64,000 nucleotides of DNA, taken from positions 1 to 64,000 of the forward strand of contig NZ_JACHZF010000016.1 of assembly GCF_014193375.1 (NCBI RefSeq). Direction: 5' to 3'. Origin of the DNA: Halomonas campaniensis. Its GTDB lineage: Bacteria; Pseudomonadota; Gammaproteobacteria; Pseudomonadales; Halomonadaceae. Below, piece by piece: positions 37,862 through 57,645 of this stretch. Under the pieces are notes generated by a model. That model did no database searches. It was not told the origin of the DNA and saw nothing but the letters and a program-made list of their open reading frames with translations. The stretch's first letter is position 1. Every line of letters begins with the position of its first letter. Made by a program: the position numbers and the translations under genes.

Positions 37862-38722
37862 TCAGGGCCAGCTGTAGACCCCGCGGTTGAGGGCGTCGCG
37901 GAAGGCCGAATGGACCTTGTTGCCGCGCAGGGTGGCGCCGCTGTAGCCGTCGATGTCTTCCGCCAGCCGCTCGGGCTCGTGGAGGGCGAAGATGGCGGTC
38001 AGCGGCTGGCCCTCGAGGCCCTCGGCGAGCCGCTGGTGCTGAACCCACACCGGGTACAGGTCGTCCTCCTCGTCCAGCGCGCGGTAGTCGACGCCGCGAT
38101 AGGCCAGGTGGCGGTAGCTGACGTTGGAGAGGACGCCATCGCGCAGGTCGAACTGCACGTTGACCTGCATCTCGCCGCCGTCGCCGAACACGCCGCGGTA
38201 GCGCCCGTCCAGCGGCAGCCCCAGCAGCGCCCGATGCAGGCGCTCGTCCTCGGCGGGCGACAGCCGCGCCGTCGCGTCGGCGGCCTCTCCGTTGCCCGCC
38301 TCGTCGGTTGATTCGTCGATCCGGGCGGCGGCCTCGGGCTCGACCGGCTCGCCCGCCTCGTCCACCAGGCGTCCGATCAGGTAGCTCTCGAGCATTCCCT
38401 CGGCCCGCGGGCTGTGGGGCACCCCGGGACGCTTGTTGTGCCAGGCCTCGCTGGCCTCCTTGCCGCACCACTCCAGGATCACCGCCTCGGGTGTCGGGTG
38501 ATGGGGCAGGTAGTCGGTGATGTCGTAGACCCGGCCATCGATGGCCTTCCAGCAGCTCTCGGCGCCGTCGTGCTCGGCAAGCGCCTCAGGGGTGATGGGG
38601 TCCAGGGCATCGTCATCGGCCGCGTCGCGCTCGCTGCTCGAGAGCGCCTGGATCGAGACCAGGGTGCCCAGGCTCGCCACGAAGGCGATGAACATGGAGT
38701 AGGCGATCTTGTTCATGCTCAT
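37862..38722 (-). CDS. Membrane-anchored cytochrome b5-like / FMN-binding domain protein
   Basis: 286 residues from the ATG at 38722, which overlaps the upstream stop by 4 bp (ATGA). One N-terminal membrane helix (about 5-25) is followed by a cytochrome b5-like domain (about 40-120) with both axial histidines in place: LPHHPTPE where b5 has HPGG, and PHSPRAEGML. The C-terminal FMN-binding domain (about 185-286) ends in DGYSGATL, the D-x-x-S-G-A-T motif whose threonine is covalently flavinylated by ApbE. The domains should face the periplasm. Together with the flavoreductase upstream it would carry electrons from NAD(P)H through haem to a covalent flavin. No apbE is in the window. Confidence 0.82.
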   Translation of the reverse strand: MSMNKIAYSMFIAFVASLGTLVSIQALSSSERDAADDDALDPITPEALAEHDGAESCWKAIDGRVYDITDYLPHHPTPEAVILEWCGKEASEAWHNKRPGVPHSPRAEGMLESYLIGRLVDEAGEPVEPEAAARIDESTDEAGNGEAADATARLSPAEDERLHRALLGLPLDGRYRGVFGDGGEMQVNVQFDLRDGVLSNVSYRHLAYRGVDYRALDEEDDLYPVWVQHQRLAEGLEGQPLTAIFALHEPERLAEDIDGYSGATLRGNKVHSAFRDALNRGVYSWP

Positions 38723-40011
38723 AGGAAGTCGAAGACCTCGCTGTGGATACGTGAGGCGGGCACCCCCTGCCCGGCCAGCAGCCGCTGCAGGTGGGCGTTC
38801 ATGGCCGGCGGGCCGCATAGGTAGATCTCCCGCTCGGTGAAGTCCGGGCAGTGCTCGCGCAGGAAGGTCTCGGTCAGCGGCCCAAGATCCCGGTAGAAGT
38901 GGGTGGTGAAGGTGAAGCCGGCATGCCGCTCGGCGATCGCCTCGAGGTCCTGACCGTAGTAGGCCCGACTCTCGTCGTGGGCGAGATAGAACAGGTGCAC
39001 GTGCCCCCCGGGCCCCGCCCCCGTCGCCAGGTCACGGGCGCCGCCGACGAAGGGGGTGATGCCGATGCCGCCGCCCAGCCAGAGCATGTCACGCTCGGGG
39101 AAGCGGCGCCCGAAGAACTCCCCGTGGGGTCCCTCGATCAGCACCCGGGACTCGGGTGCCACCGTCTGCAGGGCATGGCTGGCGTCGCCCAGGTCCTTGA
39201 TGCCGATGCGCAGGCGCCCATCCGAGGGCGCCGAGGCGATGGTGTAGGGGTGCTCCTCGCCGCGCCCGTTGGCAAGCGACTCGTCCAGCGGCGAGAGGTA
39301 GACGAACTGCCCCGCCTCATGGCGGATGCCGCTGCCCTCGGGGCGAAGCACCAGTTCCACCACGCCCCGGGCCAGGGGTTCCACCGCCTCGATGCGATAG
39401 GCGTGCCGCCGCCGCGGCGCCACCCCCTTGCGCCAGGCGATGGCGCCGAGCCCGGCGAGGCCGAGCAGCCACCAGGGCCAGGCCTCGCCGGCCAGCAGCA
39501 GGGCGTGCCACAGGCCCAGCAGCAGCGCCGCCGCCGAGACCAGGTGCAGGCGCTTCCAGCGCTGGTAGTGGGGCTGGCCGAAGAAGTCGAAGGTGGGCGC
39601 CAGGAACACCACCAGCGCCGCCCAGGCCAGCCAGCCGAGCCACACGGCTCCATGGGAGAGTGGCGGGAAGAGGGTCGCCACCGCGGCATCCAGGGAGGCC
39701 GGCACCGCGGCGAGCCCCAGCGCCAGGGCGTGGAGCATCACCAGGATGAAGGCGGCAAAGCCCAGCCCGTGGTGGAGCCGCCAGAGCCGCGCCAGGCCGC
39801 CGAAGGGACGATCGAGGCCCGGCACCCGGCAGCTCACCGCCCCGGCCAGCAGCATCAGGGCAAGCCCCAGGATGCCGGTCACCCGACCCACCCAGGTCAG
39901 CCACAGCTCCGGCGGCCCGGCGAGCCCGCCCAGCCTCGGCAGCGCCACCGCGAGCGGCAGCAGCAGCAGAACGACCAGGGCGGTATCGCCCGGCCTCGGC
40001 CATCGTCGCAT
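38719..40011 (-). CDS. Ferric-reductase-like transmembrane flavohaem NAD(P)H oxidoreductase
   Basis: 430 residues. The N-terminal half has six hydrophobic helices of the ferric-reductase domain with histidines suited to two b haems (RLHHGLGFAAFILVMLHAL and WKRLHLVSAAALLLGLWHALLL). The C-terminal half is a ferredoxin-NADP reductase-type module: FAD-binding HPYTIASAPSDG, the GPHGEF loop, the NAD(P)-binding WLGGGIGITPFVGGARDL, and the terminal YLCGPPAMNAHLQRLL. It passes electrons from cytosolic NAD(P)H across the inner membrane. Translationally coupled to the cytochrome b5-FMN gene and divergent from the ethylbenzene-dehydrogenase-like operon. Confidence 0.88.
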   Translation of the reverse strand: MRRWPRPGDTALVVLLLLPLAVALPRLGGLAGPPELWLTWVGRVTGILGLALMLLAGAVSCRVPGLDRPFGGLARLWRLHHGLGFAAFILVMLHALALGLAAVPASLDAAVATLFPPLSHGAVWLGWLAWAALVVFLAPTFDFFGQPHYQRWKRLHLVSAAALLLGLWHALLLAGEAWPWWLLGLAGLGAIAWRKGVAPRRRHAYRIEAVEPLARGVVELVLRPEGSGIRHEAGQFVYLSPLDESLANGRGEEHPYTIASAPSDGRLRIGIKDLGDASHALQTVAPESRVLIEGPHGEFFGRRFPERDMLWLGGGIGITPFVGGARDLATGAGPGGHVHLFYLAHDESRAYYGQDLEAIAERHAGFTFTTHFYRDLGPLTETFLREHCPDFTEREIYLCGPPAMNAHLQRLLAGQGVPASRIHSEVFDFL

Positions 40012-40097
40012 CGCCCCTCCCCCTGTCGAAAACTGCCACTACAGTGTTGTCGATCGGCGTCAGCCTTCAAGATCTGCGGCGCCTTGTCACACTACTG

Positions 40098-40111
40098 TTG
40101 ACCTGTATCAG
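40098..40111 (+). promoter_or_regulatory. FNR/ANR-like half-conserved site in the redox divergon
   Basis: TTGAC-CTGT-ATCAG matches the FNR/ANR consensus TTGAT-N4-ATCAA at 8 of 10 positions. It is in the 171-bp region between the divergent flavoreductase and haem-protein genes, 72 bp before the start at 40183. The same segment also contains a TTGTCA (40084-40089), 16-bp spacer, TATCAG (40106-40111) promoter-like pair. Confidence 0.4.
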
Positions 40112-40182
40112 GGAATATCGAAGGAACGGGTCCATACTGAACCTGACAACAACCTTAATTTCCCTGAAGCAGGAGTTCGCAC

Positions 40183-41577
40183 ATGGCGAGTCACGACAAG
40201 GGCGCGGGGCCCTGGCTGGTCCTCGGGCTGCCGATTGCCCTCGGGCTGGCCTGGGTCACCCAGGGCACCGGGGTGGTCGAGAACGATCCCGAACGCAACA
40301 TCTCGATTCCCGAGGAGCTGACCATGCCGCTGCAGGTGCAGGCCGCCTACAGCGATAACGAGGTCTTCTTCCGCTACCGCTGGCCGGCAGAACGCCCCGG
40401 CATCCACCACGACGTGCTGGTCCACGAGGGGGGCTCGTGGGTCCGCAAGGGTCGCGCCGTGCCGGGCTCGGAGCCCGACGGCCTCCACGAGGACCGGGTC
40501 ACGATGCTGATGGATGACGGCAGCGTGCCCCAGTTCGGCCGCTACGGCGGCTACCTCACCGTGGGTGCCGGCGCCGCCGGCTTCACCGACGAGGCCCCCG
40601 AGGAGGTGACCAAGTCGCTGCCGGCGACCCGCATGGACCTGGGCGACTGGGCCAGCCGCCAGGATCCGGCAGTCATCGACGCCCAGCGCGAGGCGGGCTA
40701 CTTCCTCGACCTCTGGCACTGGCGCGCCCACCGCTCCAACCCGCTGGAGGTCTCCGACGACCAGTGGGTCGGCCAGGAACGCAGCAGCGACGAGGGCCGA
40801 GGCCCCTACGCCACCAACTGGGACGGCGATGCCGGCGAGCCGCTGTGGATGTTCTCGCCGGAGCTCACCGACCGGGTTGCCATGCGCTGGGACGACGTCG
40901 CGTCCGGCGCCCTGGACTTCGACAGCGACTACTACCTGGCCGAGGCCTTCGCGGTGCCCTTCGACCCGGACCATGACTGGCAGGAGGGTGACGCCATCCC
41001 CTACCGCCTGCTGCGCGAGCCGGCCGGCTCCCGGGGGGACATCCGGGTGCAGGGCGCGGGACGCTGGGTCGACGGCTACTGGGACGTGACCCTGGCCCGG
41101 GCGCTGGACACCGGCAGCCCGCTCGACGACAAGATCCTGCGCGACCAGGGGCTCTACTCGGTGGCCTTCGCGGTACACCGCGACGCCACCGGTGGCCGCT
41201 GGCACAAGGTCTCCCACCCCTACTCCCTGGGCCTGGGGCGCGACGACGCCGACCTCACCGCCACCCGGGTCCAGGGCGGCTCACCGGCCTGGTCCGACGA
41301 CTGGATGGAGGTGACGCTCTTCTATCCCGGACAGGTCAACTGGCCGCTGCTGATCAGCCGCGCCCATGCCGGCGCCGAGGATATCGCCGAGGGCACCCCG
41401 GTGCGGGCCCGCCACAGCGAGCGCCAGCTCGCCCTCTACGGGGTGGAGATGGAGTTCAAGGACGCCATCACCCTCCAGTGGGGCCTGACCCTCTTCGCCG
41501 GGCTGCTGGCCATGCTCGGCGTCACCCTCGCCCTGCTGCCCGCCTTCCGCCCGACTCGCCAAGGAGACCGCTCATGA
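40183..41577 (+). CDS. Ethylbenzene-dehydrogenase-related haem-binding membrane protein
   Basis: 464 residues. An N-terminal hydrophobic helix (about 10-28) and a C-terminal helix (about 432-454) bracket a large soluble domain of the ethylbenzene dehydrogenase gamma-subunit type (b-haem binding): LTMPLQVQAAYSDNEVFFRYRW at the start, RVTMLMDDGSVPQFGRYGG, YFLDLWHWRAHRSNP, and WVDGYWDVTLARALDTG near the end. In complex-II-type DMSO-reductase relatives this fold binds haem b through Met and Lys or His. Here it is anchored at both ends and has no molybdenum partner nearby. CAGGAG precedes the start. It overlaps the next gene by 4 bp and is probably an electron carrier or acceptor-side component. 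Confidence 0.82.
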   Translation: MASHDKGAGPWLVLGLPIALGLAWVTQGTGVVENDPERNISIPEELTMPLQVQAAYSDNEVFFRYRWPAERPGIHHDVLVHEGGSWVRKGRAVPGSEPDGLHEDRVTMLMDDGSVPQFGRYGGYLTVGAGAAGFTDEAPEEVTKSLPATRMDLGDWASRQDPAVIDAQREAGYFLDLWHWRAHRSNPLEVSDDQWVGQERSSDEGRGPYATNWDGDAGEPLWMFSPELTDRVAMRWDDVASGALDFDSDYYLAEAFAVPFDPDHDWQEGDAIPYRLLREPAGSRGDIRVQGAGRWVDGYWDVTLARALDTGSPLDDKILRDQGLYSVAFAVHRDATGGRWHKVSHPYSLGLGRDDADLTATRVQGGSPAWSDDWMEVTLFYPGQVNWPLLISRAHAGAEDIAEGTPVRARHSERQLALYGVEMEFKDAITLQWGLTLFAGLLAMLGVTLALLPAFRPTRQGDRS

Positions 41578-42122
41578 CCGGCCTTCACCATATGCTCGTC
41601 CACTTCCCCCTGGGGTTCTGGGCACTCGCCACCCTGATGACCCTGGTCGGCGCCCTGCTGCCCGGCCGGCTGGCCGAGCTCAGCCGCGCCGCCCTGCTGC
41701 CGGTGCTGGTGCTCGGCCTGCTGGGGGCCCTGGCGGCCATCATCGCCGGCTTCCTGGTCTGGCCGCTGGAGGCCAACCTGGCAAGTCCCCTGGCCCGCAA
41801 CCACATCCTGATGGCGTTCTGGTCACTGGGCATCTTCACCATGCTCACCGTGCTGGTGTGGAAGGCCGGGGAGGCGGCCTTCGACGGCGCCCGCCGCTGG
41901 GCGCTGGTGATCCTCGCCCTGCTCGGCGGGCTGTTCTTCGCCACCACCGGCACCCTGGGCGGCCACCTGGTGGGGGCGCCCACCCACTTCTCGGCGCTGC
42001 TGGGCCTGACCGGCTGGGAGGTCTACACCACCTTCTACAGCCCGCTGTGGGTCGCTGCCGTGATGGTGATCATCGGCCTCGCGGCGGGGGTGCTCGGCCT
42101 CATGAGCAAGCGCAGCGGCTGA
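41574..42122 (+). CDS. Four-to-five-helix membrane protein, DUF2231-like
   Basis: 182 residues from the ATG at 41574, which overlaps the previous stop (ATGA) and has AAGGAGA upstream. The N-terminal GLHHMLVHFPLGFWALATLM contains the H-x-x-x-HFPLG pattern of DUF2231-type membrane proteins; further histidines are in RNHILMAFWS and GGHLVGAPTHF, placed to coordinate b haem. Hydrophobic segments lie at about 10-30, 37-59, 74-92, 101-125 and 147-170. Its translational coupling to the haem protein suggests a membrane haem or quinone module. Family assignment is by pattern only. Confidence 0.7.
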   Translation: MTGLHHMLVHFPLGFWALATLMTLVGALLPGRLAELSRAALLPVLVLGLLGALAAIIAGFLVWPLEANLASPLARNHILMAFWSLGIFTMLTVLVWKAGEAAFDGARRWALVILALLGGLFFATTGTLGGHLVGAPTHFSALLGLTGWEVYTTFYSPLWVAAVMVIIGLAAGVLGLMSKRSG

Positions 42123-52476: not shown

Positions 52477-52490
52477 TTGATGCATATCAA
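52477..52490 (+). promoter_or_regulatory. Perfect FNR/ANR box
   Basis: TTGAT-GCAT-ATCAA is an exact match to the FNR/ANR consensus. Its centre (52483.5) is 41.5 bp before 52525, and TAACCT at 52513-52518 is correctly placed as the -10 for a start at 52525, the geometry of class II FNR-activated promoters. Confidence 0.85.
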
Positions 52491-52585: not shown

Positions 52586-53365
52586 ATGGACCACCTTCGC
52601 CGCTCCCTTCTCGGCCAGCTGGCCCGCCTCAGCGCGGGTGCCGCCCTGATTCCGCTCTCGAGCGTTGCCAGCGCCGGCATCAACAGCCAGCCGCCCCGCC
52701 GAGAGGGCGACCCCACCAAGCGCTACGGCATGCTCATCGACCTGCGCCAGTGCATCGGCTGCCAGGCCTGCACCGTGTCGTGCCATATCGAGAACGCCGC
52801 CCCGCTGGGCAAGTTCCGCACCACCGTCTCCCAGTACGAGGTGGAGCACCAGGAGACCGGCGAGCTGGCCACCTTCATGCTGCCGCGCCTCTGCAACCAC
52901 TGCGAGAACCCGCCCTGCGTGCCGGTCTGCCCGGTGGAGGCGACCTTCCAGCGCCAGGACGGCATCGTGGTGGTGGACAGCGACCGCTGCGTGGGCTGCG
53001 CTTACTGCGTCAACGCCTGCCCCTATGACGCCCGCTTCATCAACGACCGGACCCAGACCGCGGACAAGTGCACCTTCTGCGCCCACCGCCTGGAAGCCGG
53101 CCTGCTGCCGGCCTGCGTGGAGAGCTGCGTGGGCGGCGCGCGGATCATCGGCGACATGCGCGACCCCGAGAGCCAGATCAGCCGCATGATCGCCGAGCAC
53201 CGGGACGAGCTGATGGTGCTGCAGCCCGAAAAGAACACCCTGCCCCAGGTCTTCTACCTCGGCATGGACGAGCGCTTCATCACGCGCCCGCTCGCCGAGC
53301 CGGTGGCCCTGGAAGTCCTCGACCCCCACGGCAAGGAGATGGGTTATGAATTCCATGGCCATTGA
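52586..53365 (+). CDS. ttrB: Tetrathionate reductase-type iron-sulfur subunit B
   Basis: 259 residues from the ATG at 52586 (GGAGG upstream), downstream of the predicted transcription start. The N-terminus has a twin-arginine-like export signal (LRRSLLGQL, residues 4-12, then a hydrophobic Ala/Ser run). Four [4Fe-4S] motifs are present: CIGCQACTVSC, CNHCENPPCVPVC, CVGCAYCVNAC and CTFCAHRLEAGLLPACVESC. The protein transfers electrons between the membrane subunit and the molybdoenzyme in the periplasm. Order B-C-A with the next two genes matches Salmonella ttrBCA. Thiosulfate, polysulfide or selenate reductases have related subunits. Confidence 0.82.
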   Translation: MDHLRRSLLGQLARLSAGAALIPLSSVASAGINSQPPRREGDPTKRYGMLIDLRQCIGCQACTVSCHIENAAPLGKFRTTVSQYEVEHQETGELATFMLPRLCNHCENPPCVPVCPVEATFQRQDGIVVVDSDRCVGCAYCVNACPYDARFINDRTQTADKCTFCAHRLEAGLLPACVESCVGGARIIGDMRDPESQISRMIAEHRDELMVLQPEKNTLPQVFYLGMDERFITRPLAEPVALEVLDPHGKEMGYEFHGH

Positions 53366-54542
53366 GCTGCTCGCGCCCCGCTACGCCATCGCCTGGTACC
53401 CCTGGGCGGTGCAGTACTTCTTCCTGATCGCCCTCTCCTACGCCACCCTGTGGCTGGCGGCCCCGGCACTGGTGTTCGGCAAGCAGCGCTGGCTGCCCAC
53501 CGCCCGCCTGGCCATGCTGGCCTGCCTGACCACCACCCTGGTGGCGCCGGTGGCGCTGCTGGCCGACCTGCACCAGCCGCTGCGCTTCTGGCACTTCTAC
53601 GCCTACGCCACCTCGAGCTCCTGGATGTCCATCGGCAGCCTGCTGCTGCCGCTCTACGTGGTGGGCGTGCTGCTGCTCGCCTGGCTGGCCTGGCGCCCCG
53701 CGCTGCAGGCCAACCGCCAGGCCCCCGGCCTCGCGGGCCTGGTCGCCCGCCTGCTGTCGTTCGGTGACGCCCCCACCCCGCGCGCCCTGCTGGTGCTGGT
53801 GGGCCTGGGCACACTGGTCCTCTCCACCGGCATCATGCTCTACACCGGCGCCGAGCTGGCCATCGTCAAGGCGCGCCCGCTGTGGAACACCGTCTGGCTG
53901 CCGCCGATGCTGGTCGCCACCGGCTTCATCGCCGCGGCCGGCCTGATCCTGGTGCTCAACCGGGTGAGCGGCCTGCGCGCCCCGGCCAGCAACGGCCAGA
54001 TGCTCAAGGTGCTGCTGGGCGCCTGCGTGGTGGCCGGCCTCGTCGCCGGCAGCTGGTTCCTGGATGGCATCAACGCCAACGTCGGCTCGGTGGCCGCGGC
54101 GCTCGATTCCGTGCGCGCGAGCCCCTCCTGGCGCAGCACCGCCCTCTGGGGCGGCCTGACCGGGGTAGCCCTGTTCGGCGCCGTGCTCTACCTGCTCACC
54201 CGCCCCGCCGCCCGCCGGCCGGCCCTCTTCGCCTGGGCCTGGGTGCTGGGCCTGGTGGCCATCCACATGGGCTGGATGTTCCGCTGGGTGGTGCTGATGG
54301 ACGTGCAGCACGTGGCCCGCAACAGCGCCGGCTTCCACCACTACGGCATTCCCGCCGGCTCCTCCGGCCTCCTCGGCATCGTCGGCACCTTCGGGCTGTG
54401 GCTCGCCGCGGCCCTGGTGATCGACCTGCTGATCCCGTGGCGCCAGGCGCGCCAGGGCGGCAGCGCCGCCGACGTCTCCCCTTCCGAAAGCAACGCACAG
54501 TCCGACGCCAAGTCCGTCGAAGGAGCGCCCAGCCATGGCTAA
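53346..54542 (+). CDS. ttrC: Tetrathionate reductase-type membrane subunit C (NrfD/PsrC family)
   Basis: 398 residues with about nine hydrophobic helices and a hydrophilic C-terminal tail. NrfD/PsrC features: an N-terminal YAIAWYPWAVQYFFLIALSYATLW, the ADLHQPLRFWHFYAYATSSSWMSIGS segment, which forms part of the quinol site, and WMFRWVVLMDVQHVARN. It anchors the complex and oxidises menaquinol or ubiquinol. The start at 53346 (AAGGAGAT upstream) overlaps ttrB by 20 bp, implying coupling. Confidence 0.85.
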   Translation: MNSMAIELLAPRYAIAWYPWAVQYFFLIALSYATLWLAAPALVFGKQRWLPTARLAMLACLTTTLVAPVALLADLHQPLRFWHFYAYATSSSWMSIGSLLLPLYVVGVLLLAWLAWRPALQANRQAPGLAGLVARLLSFGDAPTPRALLVLVGLGTLVLSTGIMLYTGAELAIVKARPLWNTVWLPPMLVATGFIAAAGLILVLNRVSGLRAPASNGQMLKVLLGACVVAGLVAGSWFLDGINANVGSVAAALDSVRASPSWRSTALWGGLTGVALFGAVLYLLTRPAARRPALFAWAWVLGLVAIHMGWMFRWVVLMDVQHVARNSAGFHHYGIPAGSSGLLGIVGTFGLWLAAALVIDLLIPWRQARQGGSAADVSPSESNAQSDAKSVEGAPSHG

Positions 54543-57500
54543 GTCCCCCGTCGATACCTTACGCCGCCGCCTGCTCAAGGGCGCCGTCGCCGCCGGCGGT
54601 GCCGCCACCTTCGTCGCCGGCTACTCCGACCCCCTGGCCAAGATGGCCAAGGGCGTCACCGGCAGCGCCGGCGAGAAGCCGAAGGACCGCATCCACGGCA
54701 ACTCCCTGGCCCCGGAGTACCGGGTCGACCTCGACACCGGCGAGCTGACCCTCAACCCGGACCAGCGCACCGCCTTCACCATCTGCTACGGCTGCACCAC
54801 CCAGTGCGGCGTGCGGGTGCGCGTCGACAACGAGAGCGACCGGGTGCTGCGCGTCTCCGGCAACCCCTACCACCCGCTCTCCGCGGACGACCACCTGCCC
54901 ATGCGCACCCCGGTGGCCGAGGCGCTGCGCCACGTCAGCGCCTTCGGCGGCCAGGGCCAGGTCAACCGCTCCACCGCCTGCGCCCGCGGCAACGCCATGA
55001 TGAGCCAGCTGGAGAGCCCCTTCCGCATCGACCACTGCCTCAAGCGGGTGGGCGGGCGCGGCGAGCGCCAGTGGCAGAAGATCTCCTTCGAGCAGCTGAT
55101 CGAGGAGATCTGCGAGGGCGGCGACCTGTTCGGCGAGGGCCACGTGGACGGCCTGCGCGCCATCCACGACCACGACACCCCGATCGACCCGGAGAACCCG
55201 GAGTACGGCCCCAGGGCCAACCAGCTGATGGTGATGGAGGCCACCGACTACGGCCGCTCCGACCTGCTCAAGCGCTTCACCCTCAATGCCTTCGCCACCC
55301 GCAATTACGGCCACCACGGCGCCTACTGCGGCCTGGCCTTCCGCATGGGCTCCGGGGCGGTGATGAATGACCTGGGCGCCAACGCCCACGTCAAGCCGGA
55401 CATCCAGAACGCCCGCTTCATCATGTACATCGGCTGCGCGCCGAGCCAGGCCGGCAACCCCTTCAAGCGCCAGGGCCGACTGATCGCCCAGGCCCGAGCT
55501 GCCGGCACCCTGGAGTACGTGGTGGTGGACCCGGCACTGAACGCCTCCACCTCCCACGCCGCCGGGCACAACCGCTGGGTGCCCATCCGCCCCGGCACCG
55601 ACAGCGCCTTCGCCATGGCCATCATCCGCTGGCTGCTCGACAACCAGGGCTACGCCAGGGAGTTCCTGGAGCTGCCGGGCAAGGCCGCCGCGGGCGCCGC
55701 CGGCGAGGCCACCCACTCCAACGCCACCCACCTGGTGATCGACACCGAGGACCACCCGCGCCGCGGCCACTTCCTGCGCGCCAGCGACCTGGGCCTGGCC
55801 GAGGCCGACAGCGACGACGACGCCCCCCTGGTGGTGGTCGACGGCGAGCTCGTCCACGGCGAGGAGGCGATGGCCGCCGAGCTCTTCGTCGACCGCGAGG
55901 TCGAACTCGCCGGTACGTCGGAAGGGCCTGGCGCCACCGTGCGGGTGAAGAGCAGCATGACCCTGCTGCGGGAGTCGGCCCACGAGTTTGATCTGGCCGA
56001 GTACGCGGAGCACTGCGGCATCCCCGAGGCCACCATCGTCGAGCTGGCCAGCCGCTACGCCAGCCATGGCCGCCGCGCCGTGGTCAACTGCCACGGCGGC
56101 ATGATGTCCGGCAACGGCTTCTATTCCGCCTTCGCCGTGCAGATGCTCAACCTGCTGGCCGGCAACTACAACATGAAGGGCGGCAGCGCCGTGGGCGGTG
56201 GTACCTTCAGCGGTACCGGCGCCGGCCCGCGCTACGACCTGGCCAACTTCCCCGGCAAGCGCGGCCCCCAGGGGGTCTTCCTCTCCCGCTCGCGCTTCCC
56301 CTACGAGAAGTCCTCGGAGTACCGCCGCAAGGTGGAGGCCGGCGAGAACCCCTACCCGGCCCGGGCGCCGTGGCGCTCCTTCGCCCCGCCCACCCTCACC
56401 GAGCACCTGCCCTCGGCGCTGGACGGCTACCCCTACCCGATCAAGGCGGTGATCGGCTGCATGGCCAACCCCATCTACGGCCAGGCCGGGCTCGAGGCGA
56501 TGATCGCCGACAAGCTCAAGGACCCGAAGCGCCTGGGGCTCTTCGTTGCCGTGGACGGCTTCATCAACGAGACCAACCGCTACGCCGACTACATTGTGCC
56601 CGACTCGGTGATGTACGAGGTGTGGGGCTTCACCGGCGCCTGGAAGGGCGCGCTGGGCAAGCTGACCACCGCCTGCTGGCCGGTGGTGGAGCCGCGCCAG
56701 CAGAAGACCGCCGAGGGCGAGCCGGTCTCCATGGACAGCTTCTTCATCGCCGTGGCCAGGCGCCTGGGCCTCGCCGGCTTCGGCGACGAGGCGATCCCCG
56801 ACGCCGACGGCCACCTGCACCCGCTCAACCGCGCCGAGGACTACTACCTGCGCGCCGCGGCCAACATCGCCTTCCAGGACGAGCCGCTGCCGGAGGCCGA
56901 CGAGAGCGACATCGCCCACGGCGGCATCGCCCCGCTGCTGCCGCGGCTCGAGCGCACCCTCAAGGCCGATGAGCGCGGCCGGGTGGCCTACCTCTACGCC
57001 CGCGGCGGGCGCTTCCAGGACGCCAGCGACCACTTCCGCGGCGAGCGGCTGACCAACGCCTGGCGGCGCACGCTGTGCGTCTACAACGAGGTGGTGGGCA
57101 CCAGCATCGACACCATGACCGGCAAGCCCAACCGCGGCGTACCCGGCCACAGCCTGCCGCTGCTGGCCAACAAGCAGACCATGCGCGAGGTGTTCCCCGA
57201 GGAGGAGTGGCCGCTGCTGGCCTTCTCGTTCAAGTCCAACCTGATGAACTCCTACGCCATCGGCAACGAGCGGCTGCGCATGATCAAGCCCTACAACCCG
57301 GTGCAGATGCACCGCCAGGACTCCGAGCGCTACGGCATTGCCCATGGCGACACCATCCGCATCGAGAGCCCCGGCGGCAGCGTGGTGGGCCTGGCGCTGG
57401 TCAGCGAGAGCGTGATGCCCGGCTCGCTGGGCATCGAGCACGGCTACGGCCACCGGGACCTCGGCGCCACGCCCCATGTGATCGACGGGGAATCCCAGCC

Positions 57501-57645
57501 GGACATGCCCTGGCTGCGCGCCGGCATCAACATCAACGACCTGGGCTTCCGGGACCCGACCCGCAACGTGGACGGCACCTGGCTCGAGCCCATCAGCGGC
57601 GCCAGCGTGCGCCAGGGGCTTCCGGTGAGGGTCCGCAAGGCCTGA
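54535..57645 (+). CDS. ttrA: Tetrathionate reductase-type molybdopterin catalytic subunit A
   Basis: 1036 residues, close to the roughly 1020 of known TtrA. Tat signal with RRRLLKG at 10-16. The proximal [4Fe-4S] cluster uses C84, C87, C91 and C149 (CYGCTTQC ... STACARG). The molybdenum ligand is probably C265 in HHGAYCGLAFRM. The C-terminal molydop-binding domain (about 900-1036) ends in GLPVRVRKA. Family members reduce tetrathionate to thiosulfate in the periplasm; arsenate and selenate reductases are relatives, so the acceptor is inferred. It overlaps ttrC by 8 bp. No ttrRS sensor pair is in the window. Confidence 0.85.
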   Translation: MAKSPVDTLRRRLLKGAVAAGGAATFVAGYSDPLAKMAKGVTGSAGEKPKDRIHGNSLAPEYRVDLDTGELTLNPDQRTAFTICYGCTTQCGVRVRVDNESDRVLRVSGNPYHPLSADDHLPMRTPVAEALRHVSAFGGQGQVNRSTACARGNAMMSQLESPFRIDHCLKRVGGRGERQWQKISFEQLIEEICEGGDLFGEGHVDGLRAIHDHDTPIDPENPEYGPRANQLMVMEATDYGRSDLLKRFTLNAFATRNYGHHGAYCGLAFRMGSGAVMNDLGANAHVKPDIQNARFIMYIGCAPSQAGNPFKRQGRLIAQARAAGTLEYVVVDPALNASTSHAAGHNRWVPIRPGTDSAFAMAIIRWLLDNQGYAREFLELPGKAAAGAAGEATHSNATHLVIDTEDHPRRGHFLRASDLGLAEADSDDDAPLVVVDGELVHGEEAMAAELFVDREVELAGTSEGPGATVRVKSSMTLLRESAHEFDLAEYAEHCGIPEATIVELASRYASHGRRAVVNCHGGMMSGNGFYSAFAVQMLNLLAGNYNMKGGSAVGGGTFSGTGAGPRYDLANFPGKRGPQGVFLSRSRFPYEKSSEYRRKVEAGENPYPARAPWRSFAPPTLTEHLPSALDGYPYPIKAVIGCMANPIYGQAGLEAMIADKLKDPKRLGLFVAVDGFINETNRYADYIVPDSVMYEVWGFTGAWKGALGKLTTACWPVVEPRQQKTAEGEPVSMDSFFIAVARRLGLAGFGDEAIPDADGHLHPLNRAEDYYLRAAANIAFQDEPLPEADESDIAHGGIAPLLPRLERTLKADERGRVAYLYARGGRFQDASDHFRGERLTNAWRRTLCVYNEVVGTSIDTMTGKPNRGVPGHSLPLLANKQTMREVFPEEEWPLLAFSFKSNLMNSYAIGNERLRMIKPYNPVQMHRQDSERYGIAHGDTIRIESPGGSVVGLALVSESVMPGSLGIEHGYGHRDLGATPHVIDGESQPDMPWLRAGININDLGFRDPTRNVDGTWLEPISGASVRQGLPVRVRKA

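Follow-up and report, generated by a model that had tools for sequence, protein, structure and literature searches.

Two probably separately inherited membrane redox modules with Fnr-type sites in one genomic slot of Halomonas

Do two divergent gene pairs that face each other across a single FNR-like site encode one electron-transfer chain or two? The question is raised by a 64,000-nucleotide (nt) stretch of Halomonas campaniensis (assembly GCF_014193375.1, contig NZ_JACHZF010000016.1, positions 1 to 64,000), here called the window. One pair encodes a ferric-reductase-type flavohaem reductase and a membrane-anchored cytochrome b5 protein with a domain resembling those that bind flavin mononucleotide (FMN); the other encodes a haem protein of the EB_dh family and a DUF2231 membrane protein. 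The initial annotation had read the four genes as a single system in which electrons follow a fixed route through covalent FMN to a haem of the ethylbenzene dehydrogenase (EBDH) type. We think it probable that the locus instead holds two separately inherited redox modules in one slot, the reductase with cytochrome b5 (module A) and the EB_dh protein with DUF2231 (module B), both controlled by Fnr/Anr. Open reading frames (ORFs) and Pfam agree with the annotation on the position and family of all four genes, and the members of each pair are indeed coupled by an ATGA overlap (Table 1).

The distribution of the pairs is the first evidence for two modules. Each of the four proteins was searched in 90 genomes of the same genus. 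With the EB_dh protein, 49 genomes gave matches at E ≤ 0.001; in 14 of these the only matches were weak ones (E of about 1e-7 or higher) that fell in a different, longer gene, and these genomes were set aside. The protein is found in the remaining 35 of 90 genomes, 33 times in full, once in part (genome G063) and once cut by a contig edge (G061), and DUF2231 adjoins it in 34 of the 35, the last being a contig edge. The reductase is present in 28 of 90, with the b5 gene adjoining in 28 of 28 (split over contigs in G020); of this pair, the fragmented genome G063 shows the b5 gene alone. Both pairs occur in 17 of 90 genomes, and in 16 of these they are adjacent and divergent (in G040 they lie on different contigs), so the neighbourhood is conserved in related genomes, a check that the annotation had proposed. 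Co-occurrence of all four families holds only in part, however, since the reductase pair stands without the EB_dh pair in 11 genomes and the EB_dh pair without the reductase pair in 18. Co-occurrence is above independence (odds ratio 3.8, Fisher p = 0.0055, uncorrected for relatedness). In a class-wide sample of 369 genomes, the window's own included, the EB_dh protein (E ≤ 1e-40) was found in eight others and the reductase (E ≤ 1e-60) in four others, and none of these 12 had both at the thresholds used. The window genome is Halomonas-like, and the named loci closest to the window come from Halomonas, Billgrantia, and Vreelandella.

Gene neighbours and phylogeny suggest how the two pairs came to stand together. 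Clusters resembling purE/purK, genes identified from the ORF reading of the window only, lie near the reductase in 10 of 12 loci without an adjoining EB_dh pair (the exceptions being L065 and L068); among 10 named loci that have EB_dh of the main Halomonadaceae type but no reductase, they lie near EB_dh in five (L012 and L014-L017). Mapped onto the reductase tree, the presence or absence of an adjoining EB_dh pair requires six changes, at least four of them forced by well-supported branches, and the sister pairs L008/L067 and L009/L069 differ in the adjoining EB_dh pair. Branches of this tree are long outside the genus, and four genomes, each retrieved twice, account for eight of its rows; duplicates or short fetches (L079, L096, L071-L078, L080, and L081) were left out of both the tree and the upstream-site count given below, and L039 out of the tree. 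We therefore read the adjacency as an ancient common slot in which the EB_dh pair has been gained or lost several times, and not as proof of a single machine.

Regulation is what the two pairs appear to share. The dyad TTGACCTGTATCAG matches 8 of 10 bases of the consensus TTGAT-N4-ATCAA (two mismatches). There are 16 FNR-like matches with at most two mismatches in the window, against 4.3 in shuffles (64 kilobases [kb]), and the window site says little alone, but its conservation in orthologues indicates more than chance. A [TA]TGA-N6-TCA dyad with a CCA[CT]ACT -10 element is found in 18 of 22 Halomonadaceae EB_dh loci, the -10 element ending 34 nt from the dyad centre in 17 of the 18 and 36 nt from it in one; even the half-sites recur in just 4 of 333 other genes of those loci. 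This arrangement agrees with the spacing of FNR class II promoters, in which such a dyad is centred about 41 base pairs before the transcription start. When sites with at most two mismatches were counted in the zone from -60 to -130 (L068, whose match starts late, was dropped), they stood upstream of 19 of 23 reductase genes and 16 of 23 EB_dh genes, compared with 8 of 417 other genes; a single site may count for reductase and EB_dh alike in loci that have both pairs. Perfect FNR-like sites lie upstream of EB_dh in L019 and L021, and one lies upstream of the reductase in L102, which comes from another family.

The site also accompanies either pair when it stands alone (8 of 11 reductase-alone loci and 8 of 11 EB_dh-alone loci), which makes the case for FNR-type control stronger than the annotation had claimed. 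An Fnr gene is encoded in the genome (L105:970-1749; 284.7 bits against the NCBIfam Fnr cut-off of 228), with C-x2-C-x5-C visible in its protein. We conclude from these sites that Fnr-type control probably operates in Halomonas and some relatives, not everywhere. Both modules would be switched on at low oxygen by an Fnr/Anr-type regulator, and the conserved site points to low oxygen as the condition in which a phenotype may be sought.

How far do these results separate two cooperating modules from mere neighbours? Unrelated Fnr-regulated operons that share a slot by chance and exchange no electrons would be expected to come and go independently, as the pairs do, and to keep a regulatory site each, as in the loci with longer spacers (L008, L009, and L025), where each pair has its own FNR-like site. 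Against such a chance association, both pairs encode anchored, probably periplasmic b-type redox proteins under the same regulatory signature, and they co-occur somewhat more often than independence predicts; we regard it as possible, and as the less likely account. One four-protein chain running through reduced nicotinamide adenine dinucleotide (phosphate) [NAD(P)H], flavin adenine dinucleotide (FAD), haems b, haem b5, covalent FMN, EB_dh haem, and DUF2231 is improbable in our view. It has to accommodate 29 of 90 genomes with one pair but not the other, a class sample in which, at the thresholds used, the two pairs never occur together outside the genus, and an FMN domain that is optional (unmatched in 6 of 28 genomes, see below). 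What speaks for it, namely the divergent adjacency in 16 of 17 genomes, the site common to both pairs in the window, and the odds ratio, which is uncorrected for relatedness, includes an adjacency that the old shared slot explains as well. The fixed four-gene chain of the initial annotation is the part of it that is not supported.

Table 1. Features of the divergent redox locus (positions in the window; residues are those of the encoded protein)
Feature	Position	Strand	Remarks
Reductase gene	38719..40011	-	430 aa; Ferric_reduct + FAD_binding_8 + NAD_binding_1 (Pfam)
Cytochrome b5 + FMN-binding-like gene	37862..38722	-	286 aa, membrane-anchored, helix about residues 6-24
Cytochrome b5 domain	38366..38593	-	Residues 44-119; conserved His pair H75, H103
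FMN_bind-like domain	37886..38176	-	Residues 183-279; under Pfam cut-off; optional among homologues
Flavinylation-type motif DGYSGATL	37928..37951	-	Contains Thr264
ATGA overlap, reductase / b5-FMN genes	38719..38722	-	
FNR-like dyad TTGACCTGTATCAG	40098..40111		Common to both divergent pairs in the window
-10-like element CATACT of EB_dh operon	40133..40138	+	3' end to dyad centre, 34 nt
EB_dh gene	40183..41577	+	464 aa, haem-b-type, doubly anchored; EB_dh residues 34-344
EB_dh protein hydrophobic helices			Residues about 7-25 and 437-455; two anchors
ATGA overlap, EB_dh / DUF2231 genes	41574..41577	+	
DUF2231 gene	41574..42122	+	182 aa membrane protein, five hydrophobic segments

Taking the locus as two modules, we observe in module A a reductase with Ferric_reduct (PF01794; 40.2 bits, cut-off 28) and NAD-binding (PF00175; 36.2 bits, cut-off 22) domains and five hydrophobic segments over the cut-off used. 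In the alignment, H80 and H94 (14 apart) and H156 and H169 (13 apart) are invariant in 19 of 19 homologues, and the two-haem arrangement of the NOX/ferric reductase family has a similar His spacing. The FAD motif HPYT is likewise found in 19 of 19, and the NAD-binding motif reads GGGIGITPF. In the partner protein, the cytochrome b5 domain is recognized by Pfam (Cyt-b5, E = 5e-18), and its H75 and H103 are kept in 16 of 16 aligned homologues. The motif DGYSGATL, already picked out by the annotation, retains its Thr264 in 16 of 16 aligned full-length homologues; the L039 homologue has SSAT in place of SGAT. Two reductase homologues, G084:C1:4061648-4062939 and G070:C223:16968-17972, each consist of two matches and are possibly decaying or mis-assembled.

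The flavin part is not constant. Six of the 28 genus genomes match the b5 part only, without an FMN domain match. All four reductase relatives outside the genus in the class sample are adjoined by a b5-like gene (Pfam Cyt-b5 was confirmed for two, L102 and L104); the FMN domain is unmatched in three of them, and in the fourth (L101) the contig ends inside the gene. Given these unmatched genomes inside and outside the genus, we take the reductase and its anchored b5 partner as the core of module A, to which the flavin domain is added in some genomes. The flavinylation gene apbE, the presence of which the annotation had made a check, was found in the genome, but on contig C4 with the locus on C16, so not in the gene cluster; its product scores 288 bits against the Pfam cut-off of 25.6 and 272.9 against the NCBIfam ApbE equivalog cut-off of 498. 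A short ApbE-like lipoprotein matching part of the ApbE model only is encoded on contig C21 (L094:5389-6150), after apparent nqr genes (judged by size and order only).

Electrons in module A would enter from cytoplasmic NAD(P)H, pass in the reductase to FAD, cross the membrane to its outer face by way of two haems b, and there reduce the anchored periplasmic cytochrome b5; in most genus genomes having the module, the added FMN-binding domain, probably flavinylated by ApbE, would extend the chain. Could the acceptor be a metal instead? Module A might reduce periplasmic Fe(III), for assimilation or protection, with module B serving the same metal handling. The reductase does belong to the Ferric_reduct family, excerpts of Meheust et al. 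2021 (PMC8238504) tie MsrQ-like flavinylated clusters to iron uptake, and some EB_dh-DUF2231 loci stand among copper-handling genes (L019-L022; named by sequence reading). We nevertheless hold metal reduction to be rather unlikely: no iron transporter was found among the Pfam-scanned neighbours (most neighbours being unscanned), and the conserved site appears to be of Fnr type (no Fur-site search was made). A superoxide-making bacterial NOX, or an MsrQ-type donor for protein repair, is very unlikely, as the FAD motif HPYT in all 19 homologues departs from the H[PSA]F[TS] filter in the excerpted text of PMC5676040, the b5 gene adjoins the reductase in 28 of 28 genus genomes and the regulatory site is of the low-oxygen type, although the four membrane His and the NAD-binding motif do resemble those of bacterial NOX in the same excerpt.

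Module B centers on the EB_dh protein (PF09459, E = 9e-48; 163.8 bits against a cut-off of 33.3), a family that we take to belong to the DOMON superfamily. Its predicted structure (mean predicted local distance difference test [pLDDT] 85) matches the gamma subunit of EBDH (2ivf_C; Z 12.8, root mean square deviation [rmsd] 3.0, 165 aligned) and NXR-C (7B04; Z 12.2), the next match reaching only 8.2. All 34 aligned rows share H76, M223, H264, H341, and K144. Haem ligation in EBDH is by Met/Lys according to excerpts of PMC8840923, and the Lys of SSKIAFAV is presumably the ligand in question; the column facing it in 2ivf_C is never K in the 34 rows, as read from a weak profile alignment around this Lys. 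The Lys presumed to bind the EBDH-type haem of the annotation does not, on this weak alignment, seem to be conserved. That the EB_dh-DUF2231 pair is the haem subunit of a type II dimethyl sulfoxide-reductase-family molybdoenzyme encoded elsewhere is hardly credible, since, for all the resemblance of the fold to EBDH gamma and NXR-C, of the four molybdopterin matches in the genome just one lies on this contig, a TtrA-like gene that belongs to a separate TtrBCA-like operon about 12 kb off, and no molybdoenzyme is seen among the Pfam-scanned EB_dh neighbours (only part scanned).

A C-terminal hydrophobic helix is present in 38 of 52 assessable EB_dh proteins (six cut or short ones were left out), and a DUF2231 gene follows 37 of these 38, compared with 0 of the 14 that are without the helix. 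The exception, L054, has a helix without DUF2231, and its protein ends 142 bases from the contig end. This coupling points to a membrane complex of the two proteins. In the DUF2231 protein itself (33.2 bits against a Pfam cut-off of 26.4), the family assignment of the annotation stands, while its description as histidine-rich comes down to just 6 His in 182 residues. The predicted model is a helical bundle (pLDDT 87). H5, H10, H77, and H131 are retained in 18, 19, 19, and 18 of 19 Halomonadaceae rows, respectively, and in the 10 rows outside this family H5 is kept in nine and H10 in four. By helix order in the model these four His lie at one end of the bundle, with no further conserved His, so that DUF2231 of Halomonadaceae may have a site for haem or metal close to one face of the membrane. 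A sequence search of the PDB with DUF2231 gave no match.

A second kind of EB_dh protein is encoded in the same genome, on contig C3 (L095:5389-7053, minus strand), where a NapC/NirT cytochrome is fused to a C-terminal EB_dh domain, in a gene adjoining that of a cytochrome c-cytochrome d1 protein; a PDB sequence search with this fusion gave no match. The weak matches to the EB_dh query in many genus genomes are probably this same fusion gene. By analogy, the NapC/NirT-EB_dh fusion suggests a quinone link for EB_dh-DUF2231. In module B, a haem b protein of EB_dh fold, with an anchor at each end, would complex with DUF2231 via its C-terminal helix, and DUF2231 would most likely tie it to the quinone pool or to a redox site at the membrane face. 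Tentatively, EB_dh-DUF2231 may be an undescribed multi-phylum membrane electron-transfer complex, with a DOMON-like haem b domain docked on a small helical quinone-side partner, that in Halomonas, together with an NAD(P)H-b5-FMN reductase, acts as a periplasmic hub for electrons at low oxygen and in actinobacterial relatives works with a MacB/LolD-like ABC transporter.

Several observations weigh against two Fnr-controlled modules of this kind. The reductase-alone loci L059, L065, and L070 and the EB_dh-alone loci L004, L010, and L057 have no site within the two-mismatch threshold, and at the EB_dh-side position the same holds for L008, L009, L025, and L026; the sites that do occur in related genomes are not independent. 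FNR-like sites are missing from 26 of 30 further EB_dh upstream regions, among them L036 (Billgrantia kenyensis) and every tested locus of Nitriliruptoraceae and Thioalkalivibrio, and from three of four non-genus reductase upstream regions, with many starts being crude in each set; start positions in the retrieved loci come from a crude gene finder, and some wrong N-termini weaken these wider scans. For module A, FMN_bind (PF04205) reaches 18.7 bits against a cut-off of 22 in the b5 protein, and E < 0.1 in 6 of 12 homologues scanned (8 of the 12 being full length). For module B, the association of helix and DUF2231 may go back to a single evolutionary event. Foldseek with the DUF2231 model gave no match at E ≤ 0.001 (4o6y_B came at E = 1.1), and its similarity to cytochrome b561 (4o6y_A; Z 10.6, rmsd 3.2, 133 aligned) is within the helical-bundle background. 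In 10 of 10 non-Halomonadaceae rows, DUF2231 H77 is replaced by K and H131 by D; this coordinated exchange suggests that positions 77 and 131 are in contact, and because of it a haem in DUF2231 cannot be universal. Cofactors, topology, electron direction, substrates, the quinone link, and any transfer between modules A and B are predicted from genes and models.

How does the locus compare with known systems? Closest to module A are the MsrQ-like flavinylated systems, where, in the excerpts of Meheust et al. (PMC8238504), a PF01794 protein with a C-terminal NAD-binding domain likewise adjoins an anchored FMN-binding-like protein with an [S/T]GA[S/T]-type motif. Unlike in those systems, the FMN partner here has a cytochrome b5 domain, a term with no occurrence in PMC8238504, and its FMN part is optional; apbE, "typically" in the cluster in those excerpts, is here on another contig, and an EB_dh-DUF2231 operon often accompanies the cluster. 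Bacterial NOX (SpNOX), as excerpted from PMC5676040, shares the ferric reductase-like and FNR-like domains and four His, but is filtered there by the FAD motif H[PSA]F[TS][LIMV], where the present proteins have HPYT and not HPF[TS], and an adjoining b5 partner gene.

EBDH gamma (2IVF) and NXR-C (7B04) share the soluble-domain fold and the EB_dh Pfam family with module B. The protein described here differs from both in being anchored at both ends, in its DUF2231 neighbour, and in the absence of molybdoenzyme genes adjoining the EB_dh gene in the window, and from EBDH gamma also in the presumed Lys ligand position, which is not conserved in the weak profile alignment. CYBDOM proteins (DOMON + cytochrome b561; excerpts of PMC10784552) similarly combine an extracytosolic haem-fold domain with a helical membrane partner, whereas module B is made of two genes without fusion, and DUF2231 is without two His pairs on opposite membrane sides. 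LcoA-BcnA (cytochrome b561 with a periplasmic partner; excerpts of PMC9113575) resembles module B in that two genes encode a helical membrane redox protein together with its periplasmic partner; the protein families differ, and its context in those excerpts is oxidative stress, not low oxygen.

In the open-licence literature of PubMed Central, we found no description of a Ferric_reduct-like protein with b5 and optional FMN or of an EB_dh-DUF2231 complex, and no paper containing both DUF2231 and ethylbenzene dehydrogenase. The parts are of known kinds; their combination is undescribed as far as found. If the proposal is true, DUF2231, which is without assigned function, would acquire one, that of membrane partner to anchored EB_dh haem proteins, and bacterial ferric-reductase-like proteins would gain a defined acceptor, the anchored cytochrome b5, with the ApbE-type FMN domain as an interchangeable add-on. 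This would agree with the idea of exchangeable flavin and cytochrome carriers in the excerpts of PMC8238504.

Beyond Halomonas, EB_dh-DUF2231 follows two FtsX-permease-cluster genes and a LolD/MacB-like ATPase gene in loci of actinobacterial metagenome-assembled genomes, namely L028 (labelled Micromonosporaceae), L031 (Egibacter), and L032-L034 and L037 (Nitriliruptoraceae), and in Salipaludibacillus (L038), a relative of Bacillus, an FtsX permease and ATPase lie downstream of the pair; Pfam was run on members of these neighbours from L028, L034, and L038 only. No connection between the FtsX-FtsX-ATPase genes and iron uptake of the P19 type could be established. Plasmid searches with the EB_dh protein and with the FtsX permease gave one distant match each. 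Loci L019-L022 represent a divergent Halomonas type of EB_dh-DUF2231, placed by sequence reading amid copper-oxidase and P-type ATPase genes, and the L022 copy has an apparent in-frame stop (it matches G010, 1 TGA).

Convergent to the reductase-b5 pair in the other-family locus L102 (L102:3246-6831) are genes for an MtrB/PioB barrel and for a protein in which ten CxxCH motifs were counted by eye. MtrAB as a general partner was rejected for the window genome, where MtrB/PioB is under the cut-off. Finally, the window carries a ttrBCA-like tetrathionate reductase operon on the plus strand (52586-53365, 53346-54542, and 54535-57645). Its proteins score below the NCBIfam cut-offs (TtrB 404.6 of 416, TtrC 188.6 of 314, and TtrA 1313 of 1750), and the TtrB-like protein also exceeds the DsrO cut-off. 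A perfect FNR site, TTGATGCATATCAA, lies upstream of this operon at 52477-52490.

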